A stretch of DNA of 39,911 nt, taken from the NCBI GenBank assembly GCA_014695175.1, contig JACJNV010000070.1:1-39911 (forward strand), in the 5' to 3' direction. The translations under genes and the position numbers were made by a program. Source of the DNA: Microcoleus sp. FACHB-DQ6 (GTDB taxonomy: Bacteria > Cyanobacteriota > Cyanobacteriia > Cyanobacteriales > Microcoleaceae). The notes beneath the pieces are model-generated. The model did no database searches and had not been told where the DNA came from. It worked only from the letters and a program-made list of their open reading frames with translations. Positions within the stretch are counted from its first letter, which is position 1, and every line of letters begins with the position of its first letter. Positions 3,437 through 34,013 of this stretch are shown in pieces.

Positions 3437-5542
3437 TCACTTACCTTTGTCTTTTTGCTGCTTTAGATAAGACTTAGCCCAAGCATACCGTCGGGAATCT
3501 TTCTTCAGCAGATAGTTTATCACTTCCCGCCGTTTATTCTCATCCTTGGCATTTTTGACAACCCGCTTCATTTCCGCATCCTGATCTTTGGGAGAAGCAC
3601 CGCGTTTAATTGCCTCATTAAACCAACGATCACCCTCTAACAATTCGCCCCGCTCAAAACAAATAGCTCCCATTAAAGTGTAAGGATGATGACTCTGAGG
3701 CTGATACTCAATCGCTTTTAGAGCGCACTTGTGTGCATCATCTAGTTTATCGATATCTCGGAAAGCACCGCCCCTAGTTGTTAGTAATGCTGACTTGAGT
3801 TTATTTTCTTTTATTTGGTTGAAGTCGAAATTTTCCGTCAGCTTCAATGCTCTTCTAGGTTTATCCGCCTTGCGCCAATGACTGCTGGCATTAGGCAAGT
3901 TCCATTTATTTCCAGTGCGCTGGTACTCCTGTTCGTAGAAAGTTGCTTCGTTTTTGTGGTAAGCAGTCCAAATCTTGCCAGAGAAAAGTTTCTGCCCTTG
4001 ATATCGTCGCTCTTCCTGCCACCCATAATAGCTATAGCTAGGTTGAGGTGCTTCAAGTTTATTCTCCTCCAGCCAAGCTACATCTATCTCCTCAAGTCGC
4101 TCTCCTTTATCCAGCTTTTGCAGAATTGCGTACAACGGACTCGAAGGTGATTTATCTTTATAGTTAGAGACATCATATTTCGACTTCAGAGCCGAAAATT
4201 CCCATTCTTGGGGAAAAGTAATTACGTCTTCACGTCCATTCTGTTTTGCCCAATCAATATCAGCCTCACTCAACTGCTCTCCCGACTTGATTTTCGACTT
4301 CAGACTAGCAGCACATTTGTCAAGAGCGATCGCGATCGTCTCAGTCAGCTTACGCTTTTTCAGAAAGTTAATATCTGGCTCACCTAGCTGACTTGCTGAA
4401 TCAATTTTTTTAAGAACTTTATACAGATGGCTAGAGAGGGATGAATCCTCATATTGGGTAGCTTTATACTTAATCTTCAGTTCAGCAAAGTGCCGATTAT
4501 TTTCAATTTCTACAACAATGCCAAGCGTTTCGCTCAGTTGATGCTCTTCTAGCCAATTAATATCTAATAAGCTCAACTGCTTATCCGCATCCAGCTTTTT
4601 CAGAATTTGATATAGCGGACTAAATAAAGATGAATCCAGATGTTTAGTTGCTTGATACTTAGTTTTTAGGTGAGAAAATACTGTTTGTTGTAAGGCTTCT
4701 CGTTCCTCAAAAATAGCAAGTGTTTCTGATAGATTTTCCTGTTTTAACCATTGAATATCTTTAGTGCTAAGTGGCTGGTTTTCGTCAATTCGTTTCAGGA
4801 TTTTATAGAGATTACTTGAGGGTAATGAATCCTGATTTTTAGTAGCTTTGTACATAAACTTCAGTCCAGCCAAGTGCTGCATTTTGCGAGAAATTTCTAT
4901 CGGTTCATAAAACCGATTCAATTTCATCCATATCACCTCTGAATCACTCAGTTGCTTTCCTCTGTCAATTTGACAAAGAAGGTCATACAGACGATTAGAG
5001 ATAGATGAATAGGAGCTACTGACTCGGTATTTTGTCGCTAGTTCAGCCAAGTGCCTCTCTTTATTTATTTTTTCTTGTTGCTCTCGTGCCAAAGCCAGCT
5101 TTTTTTCTTGTTGCTCTCGTGCCAAAGCCAGCTTTTTTTCTTGTTGCTCTCGTGCCAAAGCCAGCTTTTTTTCTTGTTGCTCTCGTTCCCTTTGTTGTTG
5201 TTGCTCTCGTTGCTGCTCTTTTTTCCAAATAAGCTTTACTTCTTGTTGCTCTAGTTCCAAAGCCATCCTTTCTTGTTTACTCAGTTTCTGACCTGAGTCA
5301 ACCTTCTTAAGAATTTTATAAAGAGGATTGGAGGGAGAAAGCTCCATTATCCATTCCCATTCTTTTAGAAAAAGAAGTTCGTCTGAAGTCAGGTTCACTC
5401 CTTCAGTACGCATATTCAGAAGTCCTCTCAAGGTCCAACATATACTAGAAAGAGGGACGCCTCGATATTTATTGGCTTTATTAGTTGCTTGATACTTAAC
5501 CAGGAGAAATGCAAATTCTTCAAAAAAACTTTCATCCTTCAT
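3437..5542 (-). CDS. Large repeat protein of unknown function with coiled coil and TPR-like tail
   Basis: I do not recognise a named family. Using the ATG at 5542 the product is 701 residues; an in-frame TTG at 5572 would add ten. It is built from a degenerate repeat of about 60 residues with the pattern LKxKYxAT, DSSxSSPLYKILKKID, LSxxDIxWL, LxET. Clear copies lie near residues 223-280, 288-346, 351-406 and 447-495, with weaker ones at 7-95, 164-213 and 409-432. Residues 95-164 are rich in Gln, Glu, Lys and Arg and should form a coiled coil, including a 33-bp tandem repeat (LALAREQQEKK units). The region 600-665 looks like a TPR pair (ALKAIEYQPQSHHPYTLMGA). There is no signal peptide or membrane segment, so a cytoplasmic scaffold is the best guess. 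No catalytic motif was seen. Confidence 0.75.
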   Translation of the reverse strand: MKDESFFEEFAFLLVKYQATNKANKYRGVPLSSICWTLRGLLNMRTEGVNLTSDELLFLKEWEWIMELSPSNPLYKILKKVDSGQKLSKQERMALELEQQEVKLIWKKEQQREQQQQREREQQEKKLALAREQQEKKLALAREQQEKKLALAREQQEKINKERHLAELATKYRVSSSYSSISNRLYDLLCQIDRGKQLSDSEVIWMKLNRFYEPIEISRKMQHLAGLKFMYKATKNQDSLPSSNLYKILKRIDENQPLSTKDIQWLKQENLSETLAIFEEREALQQTVFSHLKTKYQATKHLDSSLFSPLYQILKKLDADKQLSLLDINWLEEHQLSETLGIVVEIENNRHFAELKIKYKATQYEDSSLSSHLYKVLKKIDSASQLGEPDINFLKKRKLTETIAIALDKCAASLKSKIKSGEQLSEADIDWAKQNGREDVITFPQEWEFSALKSKYDVSNYKDKSPSSPLYAILQKLDKGERLEEIDVAWLEENKLEAPQPSYSYYGWQEERRYQGQKLFSGKIWTAYHKNEATFYEQEYQRTGNKWNLPNASSHWRKADKPRRALKLTENFDFNQIKENKLKSALLTTRGGAFRDIDKLDDAHKCALKAIEYQPQSHHPYTLMGAICFERGELLEGDRWFNEAIKRGASPKDQDAEMKRVVKNAKDENKRREVINYLLKKDSRRYAWAKSYLKQQKDKGK
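5074..5190 (-). repeat. 33-bp in-frame tandem repeat inside the repeat-protein gene
   Basis: The phrase CTTGTTGCTCTCG recurs at 5074, 5107, 5140 and 5173, a spacing of exactly 33 bases, so three near-identical units plus a partial one are present. On the coding strand each unit gives EQQEKKLALAR. The near identity points to recent slippage or unequal crossing-over, and the multiple-of-three length keeps the frame. Confidence 0.92.
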
Positions 5543-5751
5543 AACAGTTATCACAGCAATATTTTTACTCAAAACTCACAAAAATTAACACCTAACGCCT
5601 TCTCTCATTCCATCAAATCATGCGCCGCTAATTCACCCGGATAAAAGCGATCGCTCAAAATCTCTTTTTTTAACCAGTGATTATGAATAAATATTGTTTA
5701 CTGTCGATCGCCAACGTCTACAATGAGACAAATCAGTCGATCGCACTCCTG

Positions 5752-17497: not shown

Positions 17498-20400
17498 CTA
17501 TTTGATTGACTGTTGACTGAGGTAATCAGCACACATCTGTTTATCCTCTTCTGTCACTTTCGGGTTGGTTTTTAGATAATCCCCGATCCAGTTGCAACCT
17601 AATGCCATTAGTTTATCGAAATCCCAAATCCACAGTTTGATGGTGTGGTCATCGCTAGCCGAAGCTAATGTTTTGCCATCGGGACTAAACGCAACGCTAT
17701 AGACCGTGCTGCTATGTCCAGTTAGGGTCGCCAACTCTTTTTGGGTTTGCAGATGCCACAGTTTGATGGTGTGGTCATCGCTAGCCGAAGCTAATGTTTT
17801 GCCATCGGGACTAAACGCAACGCTATAGACCGTACTGCTATGTCCGGTTAGGGTCGCCAACTCTTTTTGGGTTTGCAGATGCCACAGTTTGATGGTGTTA
17901 TCATTGCTTGCAGAAGCTAATGTTTTGCCATCGAGACTAAACGCAACGCTTATGACTATACTGCTATGCCCGGTGAGGGTGGCGAGCTGTTTTTGGGTTT
18001 GCAAATGCCAAAGTTTGATGGTGCTGTCATTGCTTGCAGAAGCCAAAGTTTTGCCATCGGGACTAAAGGCGACGTTATAGACCGTACTGCTATGCCCGGT
18101 GAGTGTCGCCAACTCTTTTTGGGTTTGCAGATGCCACAGTTTGATGGTGTTATCATTGCTTGCAGAAGCTAATGTTTTGCCATCGGGACTAAACGCGACG
18201 CCATAGACCATACTGTTATGCCCGGTGAAGGTTGCGAGCTGTTTTTGGGTTTGCAAATGCCACAGTTTGATGGTGCTGTCATCGCTGGCAGAAGCTAAAG
18301 TTTTGCCATTGGGACTAAAGGCAATTCTATAGACCGAATCGCTATGCCCGGTGAAGGTTGCGAGCTGTTTTTGGGTTTGCAAATGCCACAGTTTGATGGT
18401 GCTGTCATCGCTGGCCGAAGCCAAAGTTTTACCATCGGGACTAAAGGCAACGCTAAGAAACGAACTGCTATGCTCGGTGAGGGTGGCGATTTCTTTTTGA
18501 CTTTGTAGATCCCACAGTTTGATGGTATTGTCAGAGCTTGCCGAAGCCAATGCCTTGCCAATACCTGACTGGAAACTGTCACCAACGGGACTAAAGGCGA
18601 CGCTATAGACTGTACTGCTATGCCCGGTGAGTGTCGCGAACTCTTTTTGGGTTTGCAGGTTCCACAGTTTGATAGTCCTGTCAAAGCTGGCAGAAGCCAA
18701 AGTTTTACCATCGGGACTAAAGGCGACGCTATAGACCGTACTGCTATGCCCAGTGAGGGTGGCAAACTCTTTTTGGGTTTGCAGGTTCCACAGTTTGATA
18801 GTCCTGTCATCGCTGGCAGAAGCCAAAGTTTTGCCATCGGGACTAAAGGCGACGCTATTGACCCTAATGCTATGCCCGGCGAGGGTGGCGAACTCTTTTT
18901 GGGTTTCGAGGTGCCACAGTTTGATAGTCCTGTCAGAGCTGGCAGAAGCCAAAGTTTTACCATCGGGACTAAAGGCAACGCTATAGACCGAACTGCTATG
19001 CCCGGTGAGGGTGGCAAACTCTTTTTGGGTTTGCAGATGCCACAGTTTGATGGTGTCGTCATTGCTTGCAGAAGCCAAAGTCAAGCCATCGGGACTAAAG
19101 GCGACCTTATTGACCATACTTCTATGCCCGGTGAGGGTCGCGAGTTGTTTTTGGGTTTGCAAGTGCCACAGTTTGATGGTGTTGTCATTGCTTGCAGAAG
19201 CCAAAGTCAAGCCATCGGGACTAAGGGCGACGCTGTTGACCGTACTACTATGCCCTTGCAAACTATTGCGCTCTTTGACTTCGGAAATGGCTTGTTGCAG
19301 TGCAGCTATCACTTGCGGTTTGATGTCTTTTGTAGTCTCGACTGAAGCATCTAGTTGTTTGAATGCGTACCCTGCCTTCAATGCTTCCAGCAGTGCTTGA
19401 AATGTCTGTCCTGAACGAAATGATTGATTAGAAAAAGCAGTTTCCTGAATTACATTTGCTAAATTCTGGGCTTGAGTGACTTGATACATCGCAAATTGCT
19501 GTGCTTTAATTAGCGTCTGATTCGCCTCAGTCAAAATTTGATTTGCTTGTCTCTGTGTTTCTAACTCTCGTTCAACTTCCCGTTGTTGTACTTCCCGACT
19601 GGCATTTAAAAACTGATAATCTAAATCGCTCAAACTTTTATCTGCGGCCCAAGTTTGAGCATCTTGCAAGGCTTGACCCCGCAACAGTCGCGATTCATCT
19701 TTACAATCAGACTCTATCCAAGCTTTAAAACTTTCGCTATAAGGGCGGAGATTCGCTAATTGCTTTTCCACCCAATCTAGGTTAAAAACCGATTGATAAA
19801 TCCGGTTATAAACTTTCAGTTTGCCAGACTGCTTAACCACCAACCCAGTTAATCGTAGTTCCATTTGTTCGGGACTATCATCGGTCGCTATCTCATTGTG
19901 CTGCAAAATTTGCTGATATAGCCCCAATAACCTACTTGCCCGTTGTTCGCTGCGTAAAATGCGTCCTCGAATCGTTTTTAAATGTTCTGGATCATCCTGT
20001 CCTTCCCAATTCTCAATCACCTTTTCTCGGACTAAACTTTCTACCCACTCAGCGGGATTTTGAATTGGTGTATAATTTGCACAACCGAGCATTAGTTTAC
20101 AAACTCTTTGCGTTAAAAATGGCTGTCCACCAGTCCAATATAACACCGCTTCTAATAAAGCTTGAGAATTTTCTGGTTGAGTGTCTAACCCTACTGCCAA
20201 AGGTTGAGCTTCTGCTAATTGAAAGCCTGTTAACTCTATACCTCGACCAATATTAAACGGAGTGCGTCGCTTGTCTTGAATTAAATCTGATGGAGTGGCC
20301 ACCCCTAACATCGTAAATGTTAATCGACGATAGTCTGGTTGATCAGCTCGATTATTATAGCAATCACGAATCACAGCAAAAAAATCTTCTATTTTAAAAC

Positions 20401-20848
20401 TTAAACTGAGTAAGCTGTCCGATTCATCGACAAAAATTACTATGTTTTCTGAGATATTCTTGAGTAATACTTGTTCAATAAATTTACTAAATCGTTTAAC
20501 ATTCGATAGTAAGCTGTTCTGCTCCCACCATTCATCTAAATCAAAAACGTCATACAAATCTAATCGGCTGACGATGCTATCGATCACACCTGCATACCAC
20601 TCTTCTGGCGTAATATCTGAGGTGCCAATTTCTGTGATATCAATGCTACTACAAGCGATTCCCTCTGCTTGTAACCGCTGCATTGTCCGCACTCGCAGGG
20701 AGGATTTTCCCATTTGTCGGGAATTAAGAACATAGCAAAATTCTCCGGCTTTTAAAGCTTGATAAAGTTCTTCATCCGCCTTTCGAGTGACATAAGTTGG
20801 GGCGTTTGCAGGCAGACTCCCTCCCACTTGATATTGATAATCTTTCAT
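17498..20848 (-). CDS. STAND-type AAA ATPase with 13 WD40 repeats
   Basis: A 1116-residue modular signalling protein. Residues 1-370 form an AAA-like (AAA_35) ATPase, with Walker [10 protein letters not shown] near 43-51 and Walker [13 protein letters not shown] near 136-147. ATP-driven switching is expected from the family. A linker and coiled coil rich in Gln (about 390-470) follows. Thirteen WD40 units of 42 residues ([20 protein letters not shown], then [11 protein letters not shown]) run from about 528 to 1085. The tail [13 protein letters not shown] is typical of cyanobacterial WD40-STAND proteins. Blade 6 has a ten-residue insertion ([10 protein letters not shown]), and blade 13 ends in IWDFDKL. 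No effector domain precedes the ATPase, so it may signal to partners. It lies 160 bases downstream of the CHAT gene, separated by a duplicated copy of its own 5' end. Confidence 0.93.
17625..19262 (-). repeat. 126-bp tandem repeat array encoding WD40 blades
   Basis: Thirteen units of 126 bases, many almost identical over the [10 protein letters not shown] and [10 protein letters not shown] parts. The array is interrupted near 18555-18590 by 30 bases inserted in unit 6. High identity between units indicates recent amplification or gene conversion. Confidence 0.93.
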
Positions 20849-21009
20849 AGGTCTTTGTTAATTCATAGGTGGAAAATCAGATAATCAAAGTTCTTCATCC
20901 GCCTTTCTAGTGACATAAGTTGGGGCGTTTGCAGGCAGGCTACCTCCAACTTGATATTGATAATCTTTCATAGGTCATTGTTAATTCATAGGGGGAAAAT
21001 CAGAGAATC
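20764..21009 (-). repeat. 123-bp tandem duplication covering the WD40 gene's 5' end
   Basis: Positions 20764-20886 (first 28 codons plus leader of the WD40 gene) are repeated with few changes at 20887-21009. The upstream copy carries its own ATG (at 20969-20971) and the same start of the protein ([20 protein letters not shown]), but after KADEEL it meets a TGA created at the junction. The result is a 28-codon open frame ahead of the real gene. Its left end touches the stop codon of the CHAT gene at 21008. Confidence 0.92.
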
Positions 21010-23287
21010 AAGGAATCAATTTGTACAGTCGTACAGGTTCAGGAATTCCCTTTAAATGTAGCATTCCTAAGTCAATCACATTTAAAGGTGAGTGGGTTTT
21101 AACGACTTGATAAACTGTTTCAGAAATACAGATTCCTCCTGGCTCTGCTTTCCCTTCTAAACGAGCAGCTAAATTTACACCAGCCCCCCTGATATCATTA
21201 TTAAAAAAGAAGATTTCCCCCAAGTGAATACCAATCCGGTGTTGCAGGACATGACTCGGAGGTAAGGTTGTAGCAGCTTCGGCGAGACTTCGTTGTATTT
21301 CTAGGGCGCAGGCGACTGCTTTTACGGCACTTTCTGGAAAGCAAATTAATAAACCATCGCCCATTTCTTTAAGGACTTTGCCTTGATGTTTAGCGCAGAT
21401 GCCTCGGATGATGTTGAAATCTCGATTCACTAATTCTAGTGTCAGCTTTTGGTTGGCAACTGATAAAGCGGTGGAATTAACAACATCCGAGAACATAATA
21501 GCTGCTAAATTACTCTCTACGTGCAAGCTTGATTGGTTATTAGTTTGTTGCACAGGAGGAATATTCGGTTGGCGAGAGGCTAGGCGATCGCGAAAATATT
21601 GACGATACAAACCACAAAATGGCATTACAGCATTTCCCTGAAATTTGATCAACCCCATGCTTCGCAATTTAAAAGCCTCTCCGGTATTAATCTCTATAGG
21701 TTGTTCGCTGTTAATCACTTGTCTAATTGTTGCTGCTAGTTCTGCATCTGTTTCCAAGTTAACTAAATGCCGTCGTAAATGATCGTAGTAAGGGCCTTCT
21801 TCAGTAGGAGCGACTTTTAGCAAGCGCTCTAAGGTAATTCTCCCCCTGGCAACTTGGTAGAGAGCAACTCGAACTAAATAAGGATGACCGCCCACCATTT
21901 CCATCAGGTCACAAATCTCTTGATTTGACCAATTTAATCGGTGTCGATTCACTAAATCTGTTACCTGTCTCTGATTGAGTTCAGGTAAATCTATCGGCAA
22001 TCCCACGTTAAATGGCGACTGATTAATATTGAGAGGAATATAAACTTCTTGAGAGTGAGAAATAACTAACCTCAGCTTTTTCCAAATTTCCTCATTTTTT
22101 CCCCGCTCGTGCCAAGCTCGTAATAATCCAAAGAAGTCGGTGGCTATTTCGGAATGCTGAAAAATGCGATCGACTTCATCTAACCCTAAAACAACAGGCC
22201 GCTCGCTGTCCGATAGTAGATAGCGTTGGAAATACTTCGTGCTTTTATTTTTACTGCCGAGAACCCCTTTCCAATATTCTCCTAACCTGTCTTCTAAATT
22301 TAATTCATTGGTAATCTCACCACAAAACCACTGCAACAACTCATCAAGATTGGTGAGAAAACTGCCATCAGCCGATTGAAAGTTTAAATAAGCCGTTTGG
22401 TATCCCTGTTCCTTGGCGTGGTATAAAATTCGCTGCACTAAGGAAGTTTTTCCCATTTGCCGGGGGGCTTTGATTCGGATTAAAGCTCCGGGTTTGACAA
22501 TAGTTTGGTAGCACTCCGATTCAATGGGAGGCCGATCGATATATAGGGGTGAATCTAAACTAACAGAACCTTCTGGGTTGTCTAAGTTGGGCATAAAAAC
22601 GGGAGGTGCGGCGATCGATCGCGCATTTTCCACCACAGGCGACGAGTCCTCAACGATATCGCTAACAGAAGCATCGCCCGATCGCTCTGCTGCATCCAAC
22701 TCAGAAAAATCCGACTTCTTCTTTAATACCGGAGTAAGTTCTTCTGGAATGCCTGCCATGCTGATGCTAACGCAACCCAACTTATAGGCACGTTCGATCG
22801 ACTCCCCCGCCGCCAACGTATCGTAAAAACCTACAGCAAATTCTCGTGCGGCGTTATCTCCCACCGTTTGCTTCATGCCGATCACGTAGGGAATGTGACG
22901 TGCGATCGCCTCAGCTTGCACTTCTGAATAGCAAGCGTTGAGTATCACGCACTCCACGTACTCATTAAACGCCTCAAACAAAGCTGCCAAAGCTTTGGCA
23001 TTTACCAGCTTAATCTGCCCCATGCCATCTTCTAGGGCTAAACCCCCTTCTCCTGCACCATGCCCAGAGAAATGCACAATCTCTGGTTTATAATCTAATA
23101 CGGCTCGCTGCATTTCTCTTGGCGTCACCGCCCACTGTTGCTCCAGTTGAAAATTGTCGCCCTTTGTAGAGCGTTGCAACCCCTCTGCAATTTCCTTCGC
23201 CTCTTTCTGTAAGTCCACATGGGTGGTATTTTTGGGGTTGGCTGCCAAAAACAGGATCGTTTTTTTCTTTCTTGGGGTACTACTCAT
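21008..23287 (-). CDS. CHAT protease - STAND ATPase - class III adenylate cyclase fusion
   Basis: The ATG at 23287 is preferred because GAAGG lies 7 bases upstream; an in-frame GTG at 23302 would add five residues. The 759-residue protein joins three modules. Residues 10-180 are a CHAT caspase-like peptidase, with H76 in VHFSGHGAG and C119 in LNACYS as the dyad. Residues 240-560 are an AAA_35/STAND-like ATPase, with Walker A APRQMGKTS (274-282) and Walker B VVLGLDEVD (365-373). Residues 592-759 are a class III nucleotide cyclase with all six canonical positions: D601 (FSDVV), K640 and D644 (KEMGDG), D698, N705 and R709 (VNLAAR). Lys and Asp at the base-reading sites predict ATP as substrate, hence cAMP. 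There is no signal peptide or membrane helix, so it is cytoplasmic. It lies upstream of the WD40-STAND gene on the same strand and may be co-transcribed with it. Confidence 0.93.
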   Translation of the reverse strand: MSSTPRKKKTILFLAANPKNTTHVDLQKEAKEIAEGLQRSTKGDNFQLEQQWAVTPREMQRAVLDYKPEIVHFSGHGAGEGGLALEDGMGQIKLVNAKALAALFEAFNEYVECVILNACYSEVQAEAIARHIPYVIGMKQTVGDNAAREFAVGFYDTLAAGESIERAYKLGCVSISMAGIPEELTPVLKKKSDFSELDAAERSGDASVSDIVEDSSPVVENARSIAAPPVFMPNLDNPEGSVSLDSPLYIDRPPIESECYQTIVKPGALIRIKAPRQMGKTSLVQRILYHAKEQGYQTAYLNFQSADGSFLTNLDELLQWFCGEITNELNLEDRLGEYWKGVLGSKNKSTKYFQRYLLSDSERPVVLGLDEVDRIFQHSEIATDFFGLLRAWHERGKNEEIWKKLRLVISHSQEVYIPLNINQSPFNVGLPIDLPELNQRQVTDLVNRHRLNWSNQEICDLMEMVGGHPYLVRVALYQVARGRITLERLLKVAPTEEGPYYDHLRRHLVNLETDAELAATIRQVINSEQPIEINTGEAFKLRSMGLIKFQGNAVMPFCGLYRQYFRDRLASRQPNIPPVQQTNNQSSLHVESNLAAIMFSDVVNSTALSVANQKLTLELVNRDFNIIRGICAKHQGKVLKEMGDGLLICFPESAVKAVACALEIQRSLAEAATTLPPSHVLQHRIGIHLGEIFFFNNDIRGAGVNLAARLEGKAEPGGICISETVYQVVKTHSPLNVIDLGMLHLKGIPEPVRLYKLIP

Positions 23288-23302
23288 CAATGGAACCTTC
23301 AC

Positions 23303-23703: not shown

Positions 23704-25080
23704 TTATTTTAGTTTACTTAAACAATCCTTCAATTCTCCTACCAACCATTCTTTCTCAGCTTGCGGCAAAAATAAGCCAAAACAATAGTTACGCGACTTG
23801 GCGCGAATCCGGCAAAAACTAATCGATTTTTTGAGCAATGGCAGATGAATTCCGCTCAACTTTACCCGCTGGATATCTTGAGAACTGATTTGAATTGGTC
23901 TGATGAATAGACGAGAAGCAATCCTACTACACAAGCACCTACACAACCACATCAAAGCATAAAATAGGGTAAATGTTGTTATAGCCAGGAATGATATAAC
24001 GAAAAATTGGTCATATAATCTACGTAGCCAGTCGGCTGCAGCGTATTCAAACAAAGAATAGCGTATCTGTAGACCTATAAAAAATCCCAAAATCAAAGAG
24101 CAGGGAAGTAAAAATTTATAACTCAGATGAATGAACTGGAAAAACCACTTGAGTTTGCTAGGTGAACGATCGGGGTGTATCTTGATTAATAACCACCGTT
24201 TAGCGTCAATTAAAGTTATTCGGGATTGGGGCGATCGCTTAAACATTTTGTCTAGATTAATCCCGCTTGGCTGTTCCCCTCGCAATGCTAATAAAGCATC
24301 TTTTGCTGATTGAAATCGATCTTCAACTGCGGGTTCAATTATCTGATCTAACCACTCGGCAAACTCTGTAGAAATAGAGACGAGTTCGCGGAATTTTACC
24401 TTCAGCTTTTCTCTGGGTAAATCCGATGGAAATTTCTGGGTTAACAAGAAAAGTAGCGTGGTTCCCAATCCATACAAATCTGTTGACAATACAGCTTTTC
24501 CTCTGAATTGTTCTGGTGCCATGTAACCGTAGGTTCCGACAACGGTACTGCCTCCAGTAACGGTATGATGGTAAGTATTTTGAACTGCGCCAAAATCAAC
24601 TAGGAAGACTCGCCCATTTTTTTGCAGAATAATATTTTGAGGTTTAATATCTCGGTGGATCGCAGCAGGTAACAGCGATTGCAGGTAAGCTAGAATTTCT
24701 AGCAATTGATAGGCGATATGACGAACTTGAGCTTCATTTGGTTTCCAGCCATTTTCTATCAACTGTGCGAGAGATTTTCCCGGTGCGAGTTGTTGGGCGA
24801 TATAAAAACAACGATCTTGGGAAGTATCAACTTGAAAGTAGTCAATGTAGTGAGGAATTCCCGGATGATTCAATCCCGATAAAGTTTTTGCTTCTCGTTC
24901 AAATAACTCGATTTTCTTCCATTCAGTTGTCAGGCGCAGGGATAAAGCTTTGAGTGCAACTTTTTGATTGCTGTTTAAATCTACAGCAGCATAGGTGATT
25001 CCAACTCCGCCCTGTCCTAATTTGCCGAGAATGCGATATCTTTCAGCAATGATTTTTTCCGATTGTTGTAGTGTTTTCAT
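23704..25080 (-). CDS. Hanks-type Ser/Thr protein kinase with two C-terminal membrane helices
   Basis: A 458-residue kinase. The domain (about 14-270) is complete: glycine loop LGQGGVGITY, K44 in VALKAL, catalytic loop HRDIKPQN (142-149), DFG at 162-164 and APE at 188-190. It also carries the cyanobacterial signature FGAVQNTY plus GTYGYMAPEQF. After a linker, two hydrophobic helices lie near 325-345 (LLPCSLILGFFIGLQI) and 365-388 (FVISFLAITTFTLFYALMW). A C-terminal domain of about 65 residues (390-458) follows and is unknown to me. The kinase therefore sits on the membrane with the catalytic part in the cytosol. It is 29 bases downstream of the ankyrin kinase and is a clear paralogue of it. 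Confidence 0.93.
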   Translation of the reverse strand: MKTLQQSEKIIAERYRILGKLGQGGVGITYAAVDLNSNQKVALKALSLRLTTEWKKIELFEREAKTLSGLNHPGIPHYIDYFQVDTSQDRCFYIAQQLAPGKSLAQLIENGWKPNEAQVRHIAYQLLEILAYLQSLLPAAIHRDIKPQNIILQKNGRVFLVDFGAVQNTYHHTVTGGSTVVGTYGYMAPEQFRGKAVLSTDLYGLGTTLLFLLTQKFPSDLPREKLKVKFRELVSISTEFAEWLDQIIEPAVEDRFQSAKDALLALRGEQPSGINLDKMFKRSPQSRITLIDAKRWLLIKIHPDRSPSKLKWFFQFIHLSYKFLLPCSLILGFFIGLQIRYSLFEYAAADWLRRLYDQFFVISFLAITTFTLFYALMWLCRCLCSRIASRLFIRPIQISSQDIQRVKLSGIHLPLLKKSISFCRIRAKSRNYCFGLFLPQAEKEWLVGELKDCLSKLK

Positions 25081-25109: not shown

Positions 25110-27620
25110 TTAATAGGTTGCGCCGCGAGCTCTGAGTATTTTGGCTGCTGCTTCTCGGTCGGGGTTCCAGTTGGTTTCTGCTATCTTTAGGGGCGTGTCG
25201 CCATAGCAGTTTGTAGCGTTGATTGTTGCACCTTTAGCAATCAGTAATTTTAAGATTTCTACAGTGCCATAATGTGCGGCTTTGTGCAGGGGAGTTGTGT
25301 TACACATATCTCTATTATTAACATCTGCACCGTTTTTAATTAGCAGTGCAGCAATATCATTGTGTCCGATCGCGATCGCTTGATACAATGGAGTTTGACC
25401 GTTATCATTTCTAACGTTAACCCTTGCGCCATTAGCAATTAGCAGTTCAGCGATATCTTGAGAGCCTTGAGCAACAGCAAGATGCAGGGGAGTTTGAAGC
25501 AAGTTATTTTTGGCATTAACGAATGCACCTTTGGCAATGAGTTGTTTGGCTACATCCTCAAGTTTGAAATCGACAGCGATATGCAGTAAAGTTCTGCCTT
25601 CTTTGTCTTCACTATTAACATCTGGGTTTTTACGAATTAGCAGCGCCACTGTATCCTGAAGTTTCAGGTCTACGGCGATATCCAGTGGAGTTTTTCTTTG
25701 ATTATCCTGGATATTAATTTCTGCACCTTTAGCAATCAGCAATTTTAAGATTTTTACAGTGCCATAATGTGCGGCTTTGTGCAGCGGAGTTGTGCCAGAT
25801 CCATCTATATTATTGACATCTGTACCGTTGTTAATTAGCAGTGCAGCAATCTCATTGTGTCCGATCGCGATCGCTCGATACAATGGAGTTTGACCGTTCT
25901 CATTTCTAACGTTAACCCTTGCACCATTAGCAATTAGCAGTTCAGCGATATCTTGAGATCCTCGATCGACAGCTAGGTGTAACGGAGTATTTCCAGATTT
26001 GTCCCTAGCATTGACATCCAGCATTAGCAAAGCAGCAACTTCTTTTGTGGTTGCATAGTGCAGTGGAGTTCTTTTTTCACTGTCCAGAATCGCCACATTT
26101 GCACCGTCTTTAATTAGGTGTTGTACCCATTCCTTAAAACCTATTTCGGCTGCCTTATGTAATAAAGCTGTACTCTTGCCATTTCGGGCATTGTCTTCTT
26201 TGATGTTAATTTTTGCGCCTGCGGCGAGTAGTATCTTTGCGATCGCCTTCGATCGCGCCGTATGTAGAGGAGTCAAGCCATTTTTGTTTTTGGCATTGAC
26301 ATCCGCACCTTTAGCAATCAGCAACTTGGCCATTTCAGGCGATCGGGCAAAGAACAGAGGAGTTATATTAAAATATTGACTTCCTGTCCAGGCGTTAATA
26401 TCTGCACCTTTAGCAATTAGCGTCTGTGCCACTTTTATGCGATCGGATGCCGTAGCAAAGTGTAACGGGGTCCAGCCATATGGACTCTTAGCGTTGACAT
26501 CTGCACCTTTGGCAATTAACAATTCTGCCACCTCTTTTGAGCCAGCAAAGTGTAGTAAATTCTTGTTATTTACCCTGCTATTGGCACTAATGCCAAGATC
26601 CAGATAATGCCTAACAGTTTTAGGATCTCCCTGTTTGACAGCATTGACAACTGCATTGGGGGTAAATCCAATCCGGTTGAGGATGGGATATTTAAAGTGA
26701 TTGAAAACAGCAACAGTAGCAATAGCAGCAATTCCTATTTTGAGGCGTTTTTTCCATTGCGTCGGATTGGATTTAACGCTAGATATTCGAGGATTGCGAA
26801 GAGATTCAAGCGCTTCTTTTGCCGAGTTAAAGCGGTTTTCTAAATCGGACGCGATCATTTTTTTTAACCAATCGGCAAATGCTGAAGAAATCTGAATTTG
26901 AGAGCGAAAATCTTTCTCTAGTATATTTGTTGGTAATTCGGCCGGGGAACGGTGGGTTAGTAAATACAACAACGTCCCTCCTAAACCATATAAATCTGTT
27001 GCAGGTACGGCTTGTCCGAGAAATTGTTCTGGAGCCATATAACCATAGGTTCCAACTACGGTACTTCCTCGCATTAAAGTATTGTAATAAGTGTTTTGCA
27101 CTGCTCCAAAATCTACTAAGCAAACTTCCCAATCTTTTGGTTGGTGGGAATTGATGGGGGATTTGAAAACAATATTTTCGGGTTTAATATCCCGGTGGAT
27201 AACAGGTGGTGTTTGTGAATGGAGATAAACTAAAATCTCCAAAATTTGTGTGGCAATGCGTTGAATTTCGCCTTCGCTAGCGTGCCAGCCATATTCGACT
27301 AAACTTGCTAGAGATTGCCCTTCTGCCAGTTCTTGTACTATATAAAAACAACGGTTATCGGGAGTATCGACATAAAAATAATCCAAATAACGCGGAATTC
27401 CCGGATGATTCAATTTTGATAAAACATTGGCTTCTCGTTCAAATAGTTCCAGGACTTTCCAGTCATTCATCTTCTGTAAAGACAAAGCTTTGAGTGCGAC
27501 TCGCTGGTTTGTTTTGAGGTCAATGGCTTCGTAAGTTGTGCTACTCCCGCCTTCTCCAAGCAGATTTTTAATCTGATAGTGGTTGACTAAGTTATGGGGA
27601 ATTTGTGAAATAATATCCAT
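25110..27620 (-). CDS. Hanks-type Ser/Thr protein kinase with 16 ankyrin repeats
   Basis: An 836-residue protein. Kinase residues 14-275 show LGEGGSSTTY, K44, HRDIKPEN (142-149), DFG at 170-172 and APEQF (196-200), so activity is expected. A single hydrophobic segment near 294-306 (KIGIAAIATVAVF) separates it from 16 ankyrin units of about 33 residues (TPLHLAVxxGSQDIAELLIA pattern) spanning 320-836. Several early units (2, 4, 5, 7) are shortened. Units 8-10 and 13-15 are near copies of each other. The ankyrin domain would lie outside the cytosol if the segment spans the membrane; if not, it is a cytosolic target-recognition arm. It precedes the paralogous kinase by 29 bases, so the two probably form one transcript. 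Confidence 0.94.
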   Translation of the reverse strand: MDIISQIPHNLVNHYQIKNLLGEGGSSTTYEAIDLKTNQRVALKALSLQKMNDWKVLELFEREANVLSKLNHPGIPRYLDYFYVDTPDNRCFYIVQELAEGQSLASLVEYGWHASEGEIQRIATQILEILVYLHSQTPPVIHRDIKPENIVFKSPINSHQPKDWEVCLVDFGAVQNTYYNTLMRGSTVVGTYGYMAPEQFLGQAVPATDLYGLGGTLLYLLTHRSPAELPTNILEKDFRSQIQISSAFADWLKKMIASDLENRFNSAKEALESLRNPRISSVKSNPTQWKKRLKIGIAAIATVAVFNHFKYPILNRIGFTPNAVVNAVKQGDPKTVRHYLDLGISANSRVNNKNLLHFAGSKEVAELLIAKGADVNAKSPYGWTPLHFATASDRIKVAQTLIAKGADINAWTGSQYFNITPLFFARSPEMAKLLIAKGADVNAKNKNGLTPLHTARSKAIAKILLAAGAKINIKEDNARNGKSTALLHKAAEIGFKEWVQHLIKDGANVAILDSEKRTPLHYATTKEVAALLMLDVNARDKSGNTPLHLAVDRGSQDIAELLIANGARVNVRNENGQTPLYRAIAIGHNEIAALLINNGTDVNNIDGSGTTPLHKAAHYGTVKILKLLIAKGAEINIQDNQRKTPLDIAVDLKLQDTVALLIRKNPDVNSEDKEGRTLLHIAVDFKLEDVAKQLIAKGAFVNAKNNLLQTPLHLAVAQGSQDIAELLIANGARVNVRNDNGQTPLYQAIAIGHNDIAALLIKNGADVNNRDMCNTTPLHKAAHYGTVEILKLLIAKGATINATNCYGDTPLKIAETNWNPDREAAAKILRARGATY
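25228..25990 (-). repeat. 495-bp-offset segmental duplication within the ankyrin region
   Basis: The blocks 25228-25495 and 25723-25990 align with an offset of exactly 495 bases, equal to five 33-residue ankyrin units. The encoded units GSQDIAELLIANGARVNVRN and AHYGTV-ILKLLIAKGA recur nearly unchanged, so the array grew by copying a multi-unit block. Confidence 0.9.
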
Positions 27621-32648: not shown

Positions 32649-34013
32649 ATGACGATGACACCGATGAAAGCTCCGCCTCTGGTTTCGCTGCAAAATCCTA
32701 AAGATGTGTCGATCGACCAAATAGAGGCCGAATTGAGTCAAATTTGGGAAAGTTACAGAGAATCAGGGTCAAAGGGCGATGTTCCGATCGCTAGTAGGGC
32801 AACAACTTTTACTTTTATAGTCTACGAACCCGAAGAAACTCAGCGGTTATTAGCGGATCTGGGGTTTTACGACGGGCCGGTGGACGGTATTACCGGGCCG
32901 ATGACGGCATCTAGCATCAGGGCGGCTCAAAAAGCTTACGGACTGCCGAGAACTGGCAAACCTAACGCTGAATTGCTGGCGACTTTGCGGGAAGAAGTAG
33001 CTCGCAAAAATTCAAAAGGCGAGGAGATGGGCTCCAGTGGTTTGGGTTCCGGGGGCTCGGGCGTGGCTGACGCGATCGTGGCTGCCAATCCCTGCCGGAT
33101 TATTGCTCTGTGCCCGACGGCGGGGGAAGATACAGGCGTGCAGGCTCAAGTGGCTGCTTATTGTCCGGTTCACAAGCGCACCACTGGCAATCTGATCTGC
33201 TGCGAGTACATTACGCTCCGGGGTACGGAAGCTGCTTTGGAACGGGTGAGCGGCATCGTGACGGCGTTGACTATCGCTGATTTGCCGACGCTGCTGTGGT
33301 GGAAAGCGAATCCTGATGCAGATCGAGGTTTGTTCCAGCGGCTGGCGGCAATTAGCAGTTCTGTGATTGTTGACTCTAGCAGCTTTGCCGACTCTGAAGC
33401 TGAATTGCTGTTGATGCACAGTCTGATCGAGGAGGGAATTCCGATCGCGGATCTCAATTGGCGCCGGCTGGCCGCGTGGCAAGAGTTGGCTGCTGAGGCT
33501 TTTGACGCCCCGGAACGCCGCGCTGCGATTCGGGAAATCGATCGGGTGACGATCGATTACGAATACGGCAATTCTACTCAAGCGCTGATGTATTTGGGCT
33601 GGCTGGCGAGCCGGCTTGAGTGGCGTCCTGTTGCTTTCAAACAAGAGGAGGGCGATTACCACATCAAGCGAATTAAATTCGTCGGGCCGGACGAACGAGT
33701 TGTGGAAGCCGAGGTGGCTGCTATTCCTACTGCTGATTCGGGCGATGTCCCGGGCGATTTGATTGCTCTGCGTTTGAATTCTACGAACGAAAAGGCTGAC
33801 TGCGGTACAGTTCTGTGTTCGGAAGCGGGCGGCTGTATGCGGATGGAAACGAAGGGTGGCGCTCAAACCGATCGGTTTAACCAGGTGAGTCCTCTGTTCG
33901 ATCAGGTGACGGAACACTTGCTGGGCCAGCACTTGCAGAGTTGGGGCCGAGATGTGCTTTACGAAGAAAGTTTGGCAGTGACGGCTCAAATGGTGAAGTT
34001 GGTTAAGCGGTAA
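32649..34013 (+). CDS. opcA: Glucose-6-phosphate dehydrogenase assembly/activator protein OpcA
   Basis: OpcA binds G6PDH and promotes its active oligomeric form in cyanobacteria. The 454 residues start with MTMTPMKAPPLVSLQNPKDV. Residues 62-117 resemble a peptidoglycan-binding-1 helical module (LLADLGFYDGPVDGITGPMT). The OpcA core follows, with the conserved AANPCRIIALCP (144-155) and WLASRLEWRPVAF. CAAAGGAG at 32631-32638 is a strong ribosome binding site. It is the last gene of the cluster. No secretion signal is present, so the PG-binding-like part probably serves protein contact instead; that last point is inference. Confidence 0.95.
   Translation: MTMTPMKAPPLVSLQNPKDVSIDQIEAELSQIWESYRESGSKGDVPIASRATTFTFIVYEPEETQRLLADLGFYDGPVDGITGPMTASSIRAAQKAYGLPRTGKPNAELLATLREEVARKNSKGEEMGSSGLGSGGSGVADAIVAANPCRIIALCPTAGEDTGVQAQVAAYCPVHKRTTGNLICCEYITLRGTEAALERVSGIVTALTIADLPTLLWWKANPDADRGLFQRLAAISSSVIVDSSSFADSEAELLLMHSLIEEGIPIADLNWRRLAAWQELAAEAFDAPERRAAIREIDRVTIDYEYGNSTQALMYLGWLASRLEWRPVAFKQEEGDYHIKRIKFVGPDERVVEAEVAAIPTADSGDVPGDLIALRLNSTNEKADCGTVLCSEAGGCMRMETKGGAQTDRFNQVSPLFDQVTEHLLGQHLQSWGRDVLYEESLAVTAQMVKLVKR

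Follow-up and report, generated by a model that had tools for sequence, protein, structure and literature searches.

As a rule, a switch of the STAND or NLR type is a single polypeptide that combines effector, ATPase and sensor and triggers one effector. In multicellular bacteria, the VMAP, iSTAND, EACC1-caspase and TRADD-N systems carry caspase-like peptidases and cyclic nucleoside monophosphate (cNMP) cyclases as modules (PMC7159879; PMC8195603), and a TRADD-N protein of Gemmata massiliana is a published precedent for linking a caspase to a nucleotide cyclase within the same polypeptide (PMC8195603). Here we describe a locus of the cyanobacterium Microcoleus sp. FACHB-DQ6 (assembly GCA_014695175.1, contig JACJNV010000070.1, positions 1 to 39,911; this whole stretch of 39,911 nucleotides is called the window), where a gene for a CHAT-AAA_35-class III adenylate cyclase protein (gene A) adjoins a gene for a second AAA_35 ATPase with WD40 repeats (gene B). 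Gene A appears to be the "A half" of a recurrent cyanobacterial two-gene module, in which one or more effectors precede a type a ATPase (AAA_35a) that may be followed by a cyclase or GGDEF domain. Gene B is of the type often found just downstream, where a type b ATPase (AAA_35b) is followed by WD40, TPR, GAF, GUN4 or another sensor. We consider it rather probable that A and B are the two halves of a split NLR-like switch, in which B would sense, the ATPases would assemble and both outputs would fire. Domain content, catalytic residues, gene pairing, co-divergence, natural fusions and an NLR-type ATPase fold are the observations behind this reading.

Gene A and its three domains

Gene A lies on the reverse strand (21008..23302), as do all features of A and B given below, and encodes 764 amino acids from a GTG start; an ATG downstream of the GTG, at 23287, is an alternative start that gives 759. 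An earlier note on this DNA, which numbered residues from the ATG, had placed a CHAT dyad, a P-loop and six cyclase positions in one polypeptide. All of these residues are confirmed, and a Pfam scan finds CHAT, AAA_35 and class III cyclase each above its cut-off. The CHAT domain (residues 18-172; 22787..23251) scores 52.4 bits against a cut-off of 24, is alignable to the solved structure 8tl0 and holds the dyad His81 (23060-23062) and Cys124 (22931-22933), which is present in every aligned letter of a wider homologue set (H 183/183, C 184/184). The AAA_35 type a ATPase (residues 243-571; 21590..22576) has nucleotide-binding, helical and winged-helix parts, the winged-helix elements being visible in the secondary structure of predicted models. 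Its P-loop is APRQMGKTS (22442-22468) and its Walker B motif LGLDEVD (22169-22189); in the wider A set, the Walker residues are found in 240 of 241 (Lys), 230 of 242 (Asp) and 212 of 242 (Glu) aligned letters. Past the nucleotide-binding domain, GGHPYLV in A aligns with GGQPFLT in B, which we take to be the STAND GxP-type motif. The cyclase domain (residues 600-761; 21020..21505) retains D606, K645, D649, D703, N710 and R714, where the Lys/Asp pair is presumably the adenylate cyclase signature. Ahead of it, the predicted structure shows a disordered linker (residues 571-592). The best 50 matches of the whole gene A model to solved structures are all cyclases, which indicates a cyclase fold and informs on that part of the protein only, leaving CHAT and ATPase uncovered. 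By sequence, gene A is a STAND-type ATPase with a CHAT dyad and a complete set of cyclase residues, so that catalysis is predicted for both.

It is very improbable that either the cyclase or CHAT is vestigial, or serves purely as a nucleotide sensor without catalysis. The dyad and the six cyclase residues are invariant in all 14 aligned three-domain homologues, and within gene A, identity to the orthologue in locus L122 is highest for the cyclase (95%, compared with 94% for AAA_35 and 91% for CHAT). Decay does occur in the family, however: five related A halves that lack CHAT (L145-L149) have lost at least one of the six cyclase residues, and pseudo-cyclases therefore seem to exist.

A protein search spanned 5.8 billion proteins, with 120 matches listed. 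Among these, the three-domain form at 77-94% identity comes mostly from Microcoleus by source names (one match, P0023, is labelled as an Actinomycetota metagenome-assembled genome, perhaps a mixed bin), more distant three-domain proteins such as that of Planktothricoides are ∼56-61% identical, and the rest are dominated by CHAT-AAA_35 without cyclase. Across 388 genomes of the order, a query of the AAA_35 tail plus cyclase has a match of any kind in 61 at E 1e-28, and an AAA_35a-cyclase fusion is found in 28. The gene is patchy, held by 3 of the 23 same-genus genomes visible in this match table. CHAT is also present in 11 of the 30 AAA_35a-cyclase loci, so the full domain order recurs in 11 of the 388 genomes; the counts of 28 and 11 come from a manual reading of the match table, checked on 29 fetched loci and the window. 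A chance or mis-annotated triple fusion is rejected by this recurrence together with the residue conservation. A phage origin of gene A is weakened, since 50,697 phage records gave a single weak match, confined to the cyclase part.

Gene B and the pairing of the two genes

The earlier note saw in gene A a single switch protein. The three modules do share one chain, but gene A appears to be one half of a switch, and the presumed sensor half is the adjacent gene B (17498..20848; 1116 amino acids), which the note had missed. The AAA_35 type b ATPase of gene B (19784..20821) has both motifs intact (P-loop NSRQMGKSS, Walker B VDESD), and its WD40 array (17594..19255) consists of 13 units of ∼42 amino acids. 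The units are near copies of one another, with a mean identity of 79% over 12 compared units, and differ most at unit positions 5, 7, 8, 23 and 25. Against L122, the WD40 part is 69% identical while the remainder of B and gene A are each at 91%; L121 shows the same trend less strongly (67% versus 83% for the remainder of B), and all of these WD40 figures are rough because the repeat register was set by BLAST. WD40 repeats of fungal NLRs are similarly conserved internally and diversifying (PMC4986451). The orthologous locus L121 carries two long B genes in tandem, and Oscillatoria nigro-viridis PCC 7112 also has a closely orthologous A-B pair.

The gap between A and B is 159 bases in the window versus 29-36 in the five closest orthologous loci, due to a local tandem duplication. 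Its two 123-bp copies (20764-20886 and 20887-21009) are 94% identical, span the A-B junction and leave a truncated copy of the gene B start between the genes.

The profiles that define the type a and type b labels were built from the two genes of the window and their close relatives. Within the genome that holds the window, AAA_35 proteins fall into two grades, high-scoring (A) and low-scoring (B), that are often adjacent. The neighbourhoods of CHAT-AAA_35a genes were sampled at 80 named loci, the top-ranking ones of a longer scan using CHAT patterns, and a B gene, fragments included, was counted when it lay on the same strand within 1.5 kb downstream. B follows 45 of the 51 CHAT-AAA_35a genes with at least 1.5 kb of downstream sequence (three more were too short), and lies upstream, on either strand, in 0 of 48. 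The two genes overlap in 12 of these 45 cases and are fewer than 30 bases apart in another 11, which suggests translational coupling of A and B. For AAA_35a-cyclase loci, B is downstream in 22 of 30 and upstream in 1 of 28, and for CHAT-AAA_35a-cyclase loci it is downstream in 8 of 11, although at one of these (L137) only as an 88-amino-acid fragment. Over 78 genomes, 27 hold both A and B, one holds A alone, none holds B alone and 50 hold neither. The two genes also co-diverge over 58 pairs (Mantel r 0.904, which includes a contribution of shared species history), and their nearest neighbours agree in 36 of the 58 pairs versus about 1 in shuffles.

The A and B ATPases are paralogous (hhalign 99.7%, 326 columns, 22% identity). 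The Walker A lysine is present in 58 of 58 B proteins examined, with the Walker B pattern not found in 4. It could be argued from this that A and B share an ancestor and lie side by side, yet each forms its own homomeric STAND switch, as Walker A is intact in both. A survey of 78 A genes unselected for CHAT or cyclase is also less clean, with B within 1.5 kb downstream in 36, upstream or fused in 7, on the other strand in 2 and absent in 33, and three A halves with both CHAT and cyclase have no B nearby; these cases, too, would suit separate switches. The one-sided placement of B, the matched phyletic distribution, the co-divergence and the fusions described below all speak against separate homomers, and we regard that arrangement as unlikely.

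Fusions of A and B exist in both orders. One naturally occurring single-chain fusion, P0180, shares 67% identity with the A ATPase of the window and 67% with its B ATPase. Other relatives fuse effector, A, B and sensor, which is the NLR layout. The modelled ATPase of P0180 matches the fold of CED-4, plant NLRs and Apaf-1, with archaeal ORC2 tying with the NLR-type structures; this predicted NB-ARC/STAND fold belongs to the fusion model rather than to the window ATPase itself. The STAND-like assignment of the earlier note is borne out to this extent. Searches of the ATPase profiles against sequences of solved structures gave short matches only, mostly of the P-loop.

Some A-B pairs are plasmid-borne. 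On a plasmid of Nostoc sp. TCL26-01 (L195:841-9857), two consecutive A-B pairs, one with a B ending in a histidine kinase, adjoin a NACHT gene and ISAs1 transposase genes.

Outputs, sensors and a possible mechanism

The N-termini of A halves carry CHAT, TIR, CHAT-TIR, kinase-TIR, HTH-TIR, LuxR-type HTH, caspase-TIR, trypsin-TIR or nothing recognised, and the C-termini an adenylate cyclase, GGDEF or nothing; some A halves have an N-terminal cyclase instead. Among 29 high-scoring A proteins not chosen by effector (E 0.01), two of them B-A fusions, TIR is found in 9, cyclase in 3, and CHAT, trypsin and kinase in 1 each. B-type C-termini are as varied, with WD40, TPR, GUN4, GAF, GAF-PAS-cyclase, periplasmic-binding and CHASE2 domains, and single cases of CHAT and histidine kinase. 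At three loci (L126:7992-12140, L139:7792-11310, L143:7544-11017), the B half terminates in GAF repeats, or in one case in GAF-PAS-cyclase, and adjoins an A half with cyclase and without CHAT; these are possible small-molecule or light-sensing versions. AAA_35b proteins with CHASE2 (P0216-P0226, P0228-P0240), several of which also have a class III cyclase, probably form a membrane-anchored B branch. The window's own genome encodes an AAA_35a-GGDEF protein (L153:2302-4026), a cyclic di-GMP counterpart of the cyclase-bearing A half, with no B gene within 1.5 kb downstream.

CHAT-AAA_35 without cyclase, the commoner form among the matches listed, and AAA_35-cyclase without CHAT both occur beside the same B type, so CHAT and cyclase are separable modules on one switch. 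On an AAA_35a tree built with FastTree, the cyclase label needs 9 changes, an approximate count, since 35 of the 121 forks are unresolved, cyclases at the N-terminus are included and locus ends truncate some rows. It argues against the cyclase fusion having arisen just once. The window's three-domain protein falls inside the CHAT-AAA_35 part of the tree, suggesting that the cyclase was gained there. On the cyclase tree, its cyclase groups with those of L128 and L140, whose ATPases sit elsewhere on the ATPase tree. A halves thus seem to have acquired a cyclase on several occasions and to have exchanged cyclases with one another, which suggests that the outputs are interchangeable.

The earlier note had proposed a specific coupling of protease and cyclase. 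Within one chain, cyclic AMP (cAMP) or ATP depletion could gate CHAT, or CHAT could cleave and release the cyclase, with the disordered linker as a possible cleavage site. Both active sites are kept intact together in the three-domain proteins, and a protease joined to a nucleotide-signal enzyme recurs in relatives (CHAT-TIR, caspase-TIR, trypsin-TIR and trypsin-TIR-AAA_35-cyclase), which argues that the pairing is more than an accident. We nevertheless think such coupling improbable, as each output is found without the other beside the same B type, Pfam finds no cNMP-binding domain in gene A, the outputs seem interchangeable, and no sign was found that cAMP gates proteolysis. The separate occurrence of the outputs agrees better with one common switch that drives both in parallel. 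With natural fusions at hand, and with CHAT and cyclase each available alone as well as combined, the coupling question lends itself to direct testing.

In the split switch that we favour, the WD40 beta-propeller of gene B would detect a ligand, upon which the A and B ATPase domains would bind ATP and assemble together. Class III cyclases work as dimers, needing two chains per active site. Assembly alone could therefore switch on cAMP, by bringing several A subunits close enough for their C-terminal cyclase domains to pair. The N-terminal CHAT protease would be switched on simultaneously, giving a two-output switch of local proteolysis and diffusible cAMP. In this scheme we infer the oligomerisation, the sensing of a ligand by WD40, the order of activation and the biological trigger.

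What such a switch responds to is a separate matter. The earlier note's death and defence flavour agrees with the effector set of the relatives (TIR, CHAT, caspase, trypsin), which resembles the conflict systems of Kaur et al. (PMC7159879; PMC8195603). It is conceivable, at somewhat less than even weight, that B instead reads a tetrapyrrole, light, redox state or a metabolite, with the cAMP from A tuning motility or carbon use and CHAT acting as a regulatory protease. GUN4, triple GAF, PAS or periplasmic-binding domains on some B halves, CHASE2 on some AAA_35b proteins and HTH or GGDEF on A halves would suit an environmental sensor. The window's genome is rich in cAMP machinery (34 PF00211 and 13 PF00027 matches), and the 19 Pfam-scanned window proteins are mostly metabolic, apart from two kinases. 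Against this stand the effector set, the plasmid-borne pairs, and the near-identical WD40 array that diverges faster than the remainder of B. Some B sensors favour an environmental response, and the effector set favours antiviral defence.

More broadly, we tentatively propose that split receptors of NLR type, made from two different STAND ATPases that are encoded side by side and both motif-intact, form a large family in cyanobacteria. On the output half, a protease (CHAT, caspase or trypsin) would be combined with an enzyme of nucleotide signalling (TIR or cyclase). A single sensing event could then yield proteolysis on the spot and a second messenger that diffuses, here cAMP, raising an alarm in a multicellular filament.

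Two serine/threonine kinase genes (23704-25080 and 25110-27620, reverse strand), the second with a long ankyrin array, lie directly upstream of gene A. They match the PADLOC PD-T4-6 kinase models at 210 and 197 bits, a point for defence that may reflect general kinase similarity. They are unlikely parts of the system: two close orthologous loci, L121 and L122, have them beside A-B, but a tblastn search (E 1e-40) did not detect them within the 14 kb around L123-L125, although A-B persists there. Elsewhere in the window, an OpcA-type glucose-6-phosphate dehydrogenase assembly protein (32649-34013, forward strand) also matches the peptidoglycan-binding domain PF01471, and a 711-amino-acid open frame (3437-5572, reverse strand) has no Pfam match at E 0.001.

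Comparison with known systems

The literature searched, which left out most subscription papers, yielded no account of an A-B pair or of a protein that combines CHAT, AAA_35 and cyclase. The Npun2340/2341 STAND family of Leipe et al. (2004), named after two consecutive Nostoc punctiforme genes, may be the same family.

The PADLOC SAVED_CHAT model matches the CHAT domain of gene A at 25.3 bits, and its best solved sequence relative is 8tl0 (E 5e-13), a "CHAT domain-containing protein" that we guess to be SAVED-CHAT. SAVED-CHAT is a type III CRISPR effector with a cyclic oligonucleotide as its input, whereas the cyclase of gene A is an output of the same chain. Among the closest known counterparts of the cyclase itself are the class IIIc adenylate cyclases Ma1120, Rv1900c and 3mr7, from which it differs in its attachment to a STAND ATPase and CHAT. 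PycC models of Pycsar give weak matches only (best 39.7 bits), and no dedicated effector gene of the Pycsar type is seen among the scanned window proteins; the Lys/Asp pair would argue for ATP as substrate.

No MoxR-vWA, EACC1 or TRADD-N core was seen at the window, and no MoxR or vWA partner genes occur among the 19 Pfam-scanned proteins (of 47 open reading frames longer than 100 amino acids, the remainder being unscanned). The cyclase of EACC1 systems is described as taking the place of the caspase, while in gene A CHAT and cyclase flank one STAND ATPase. The nSTAND2 system is likewise two-gene and mobile, with STAND ATPases in both genes and a variable effector on one (PMC8195603). One of its ATPases has eroded motifs and its effectors are mostly GT4 or HEPN (PMC8195603), whereas in the window the Walker A and B motifs are intact in each of the two ATPases, which belong to Pfam AAA_35 and have relatives with CHAT, TIR and cyclase.

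Close parallels in logic are the NLR and AP-ATPase switches (CED-4, Apaf-1, Dark and plant TIR-NLRs such as RPP1), with which the family shares a predicted ATPase fold and the order effector-ATPase-WD40/TPR. Relatives of gene A have TIR and caspase-like effectors in common with them, and the WD40 sensor is as in Apaf-1. In the window, effector, one ATPase and sensor repeats are not joined in a single chain, as they are in these switches, although fused relatives exist. Unlike them, the A-B pair is split over two genes with two different ATPases, carries a cyclase on the output half and belongs to the AAA_35 family, here seen mainly in cyanobacteria. With effector and sensor divided between two paired ATPases and two catalytic outputs possible, the A-B family would be a bacterial system in which to study how NLRs assemble as heteromers and how proteolysis and cyclic-nucleotide signalling are started jointly.
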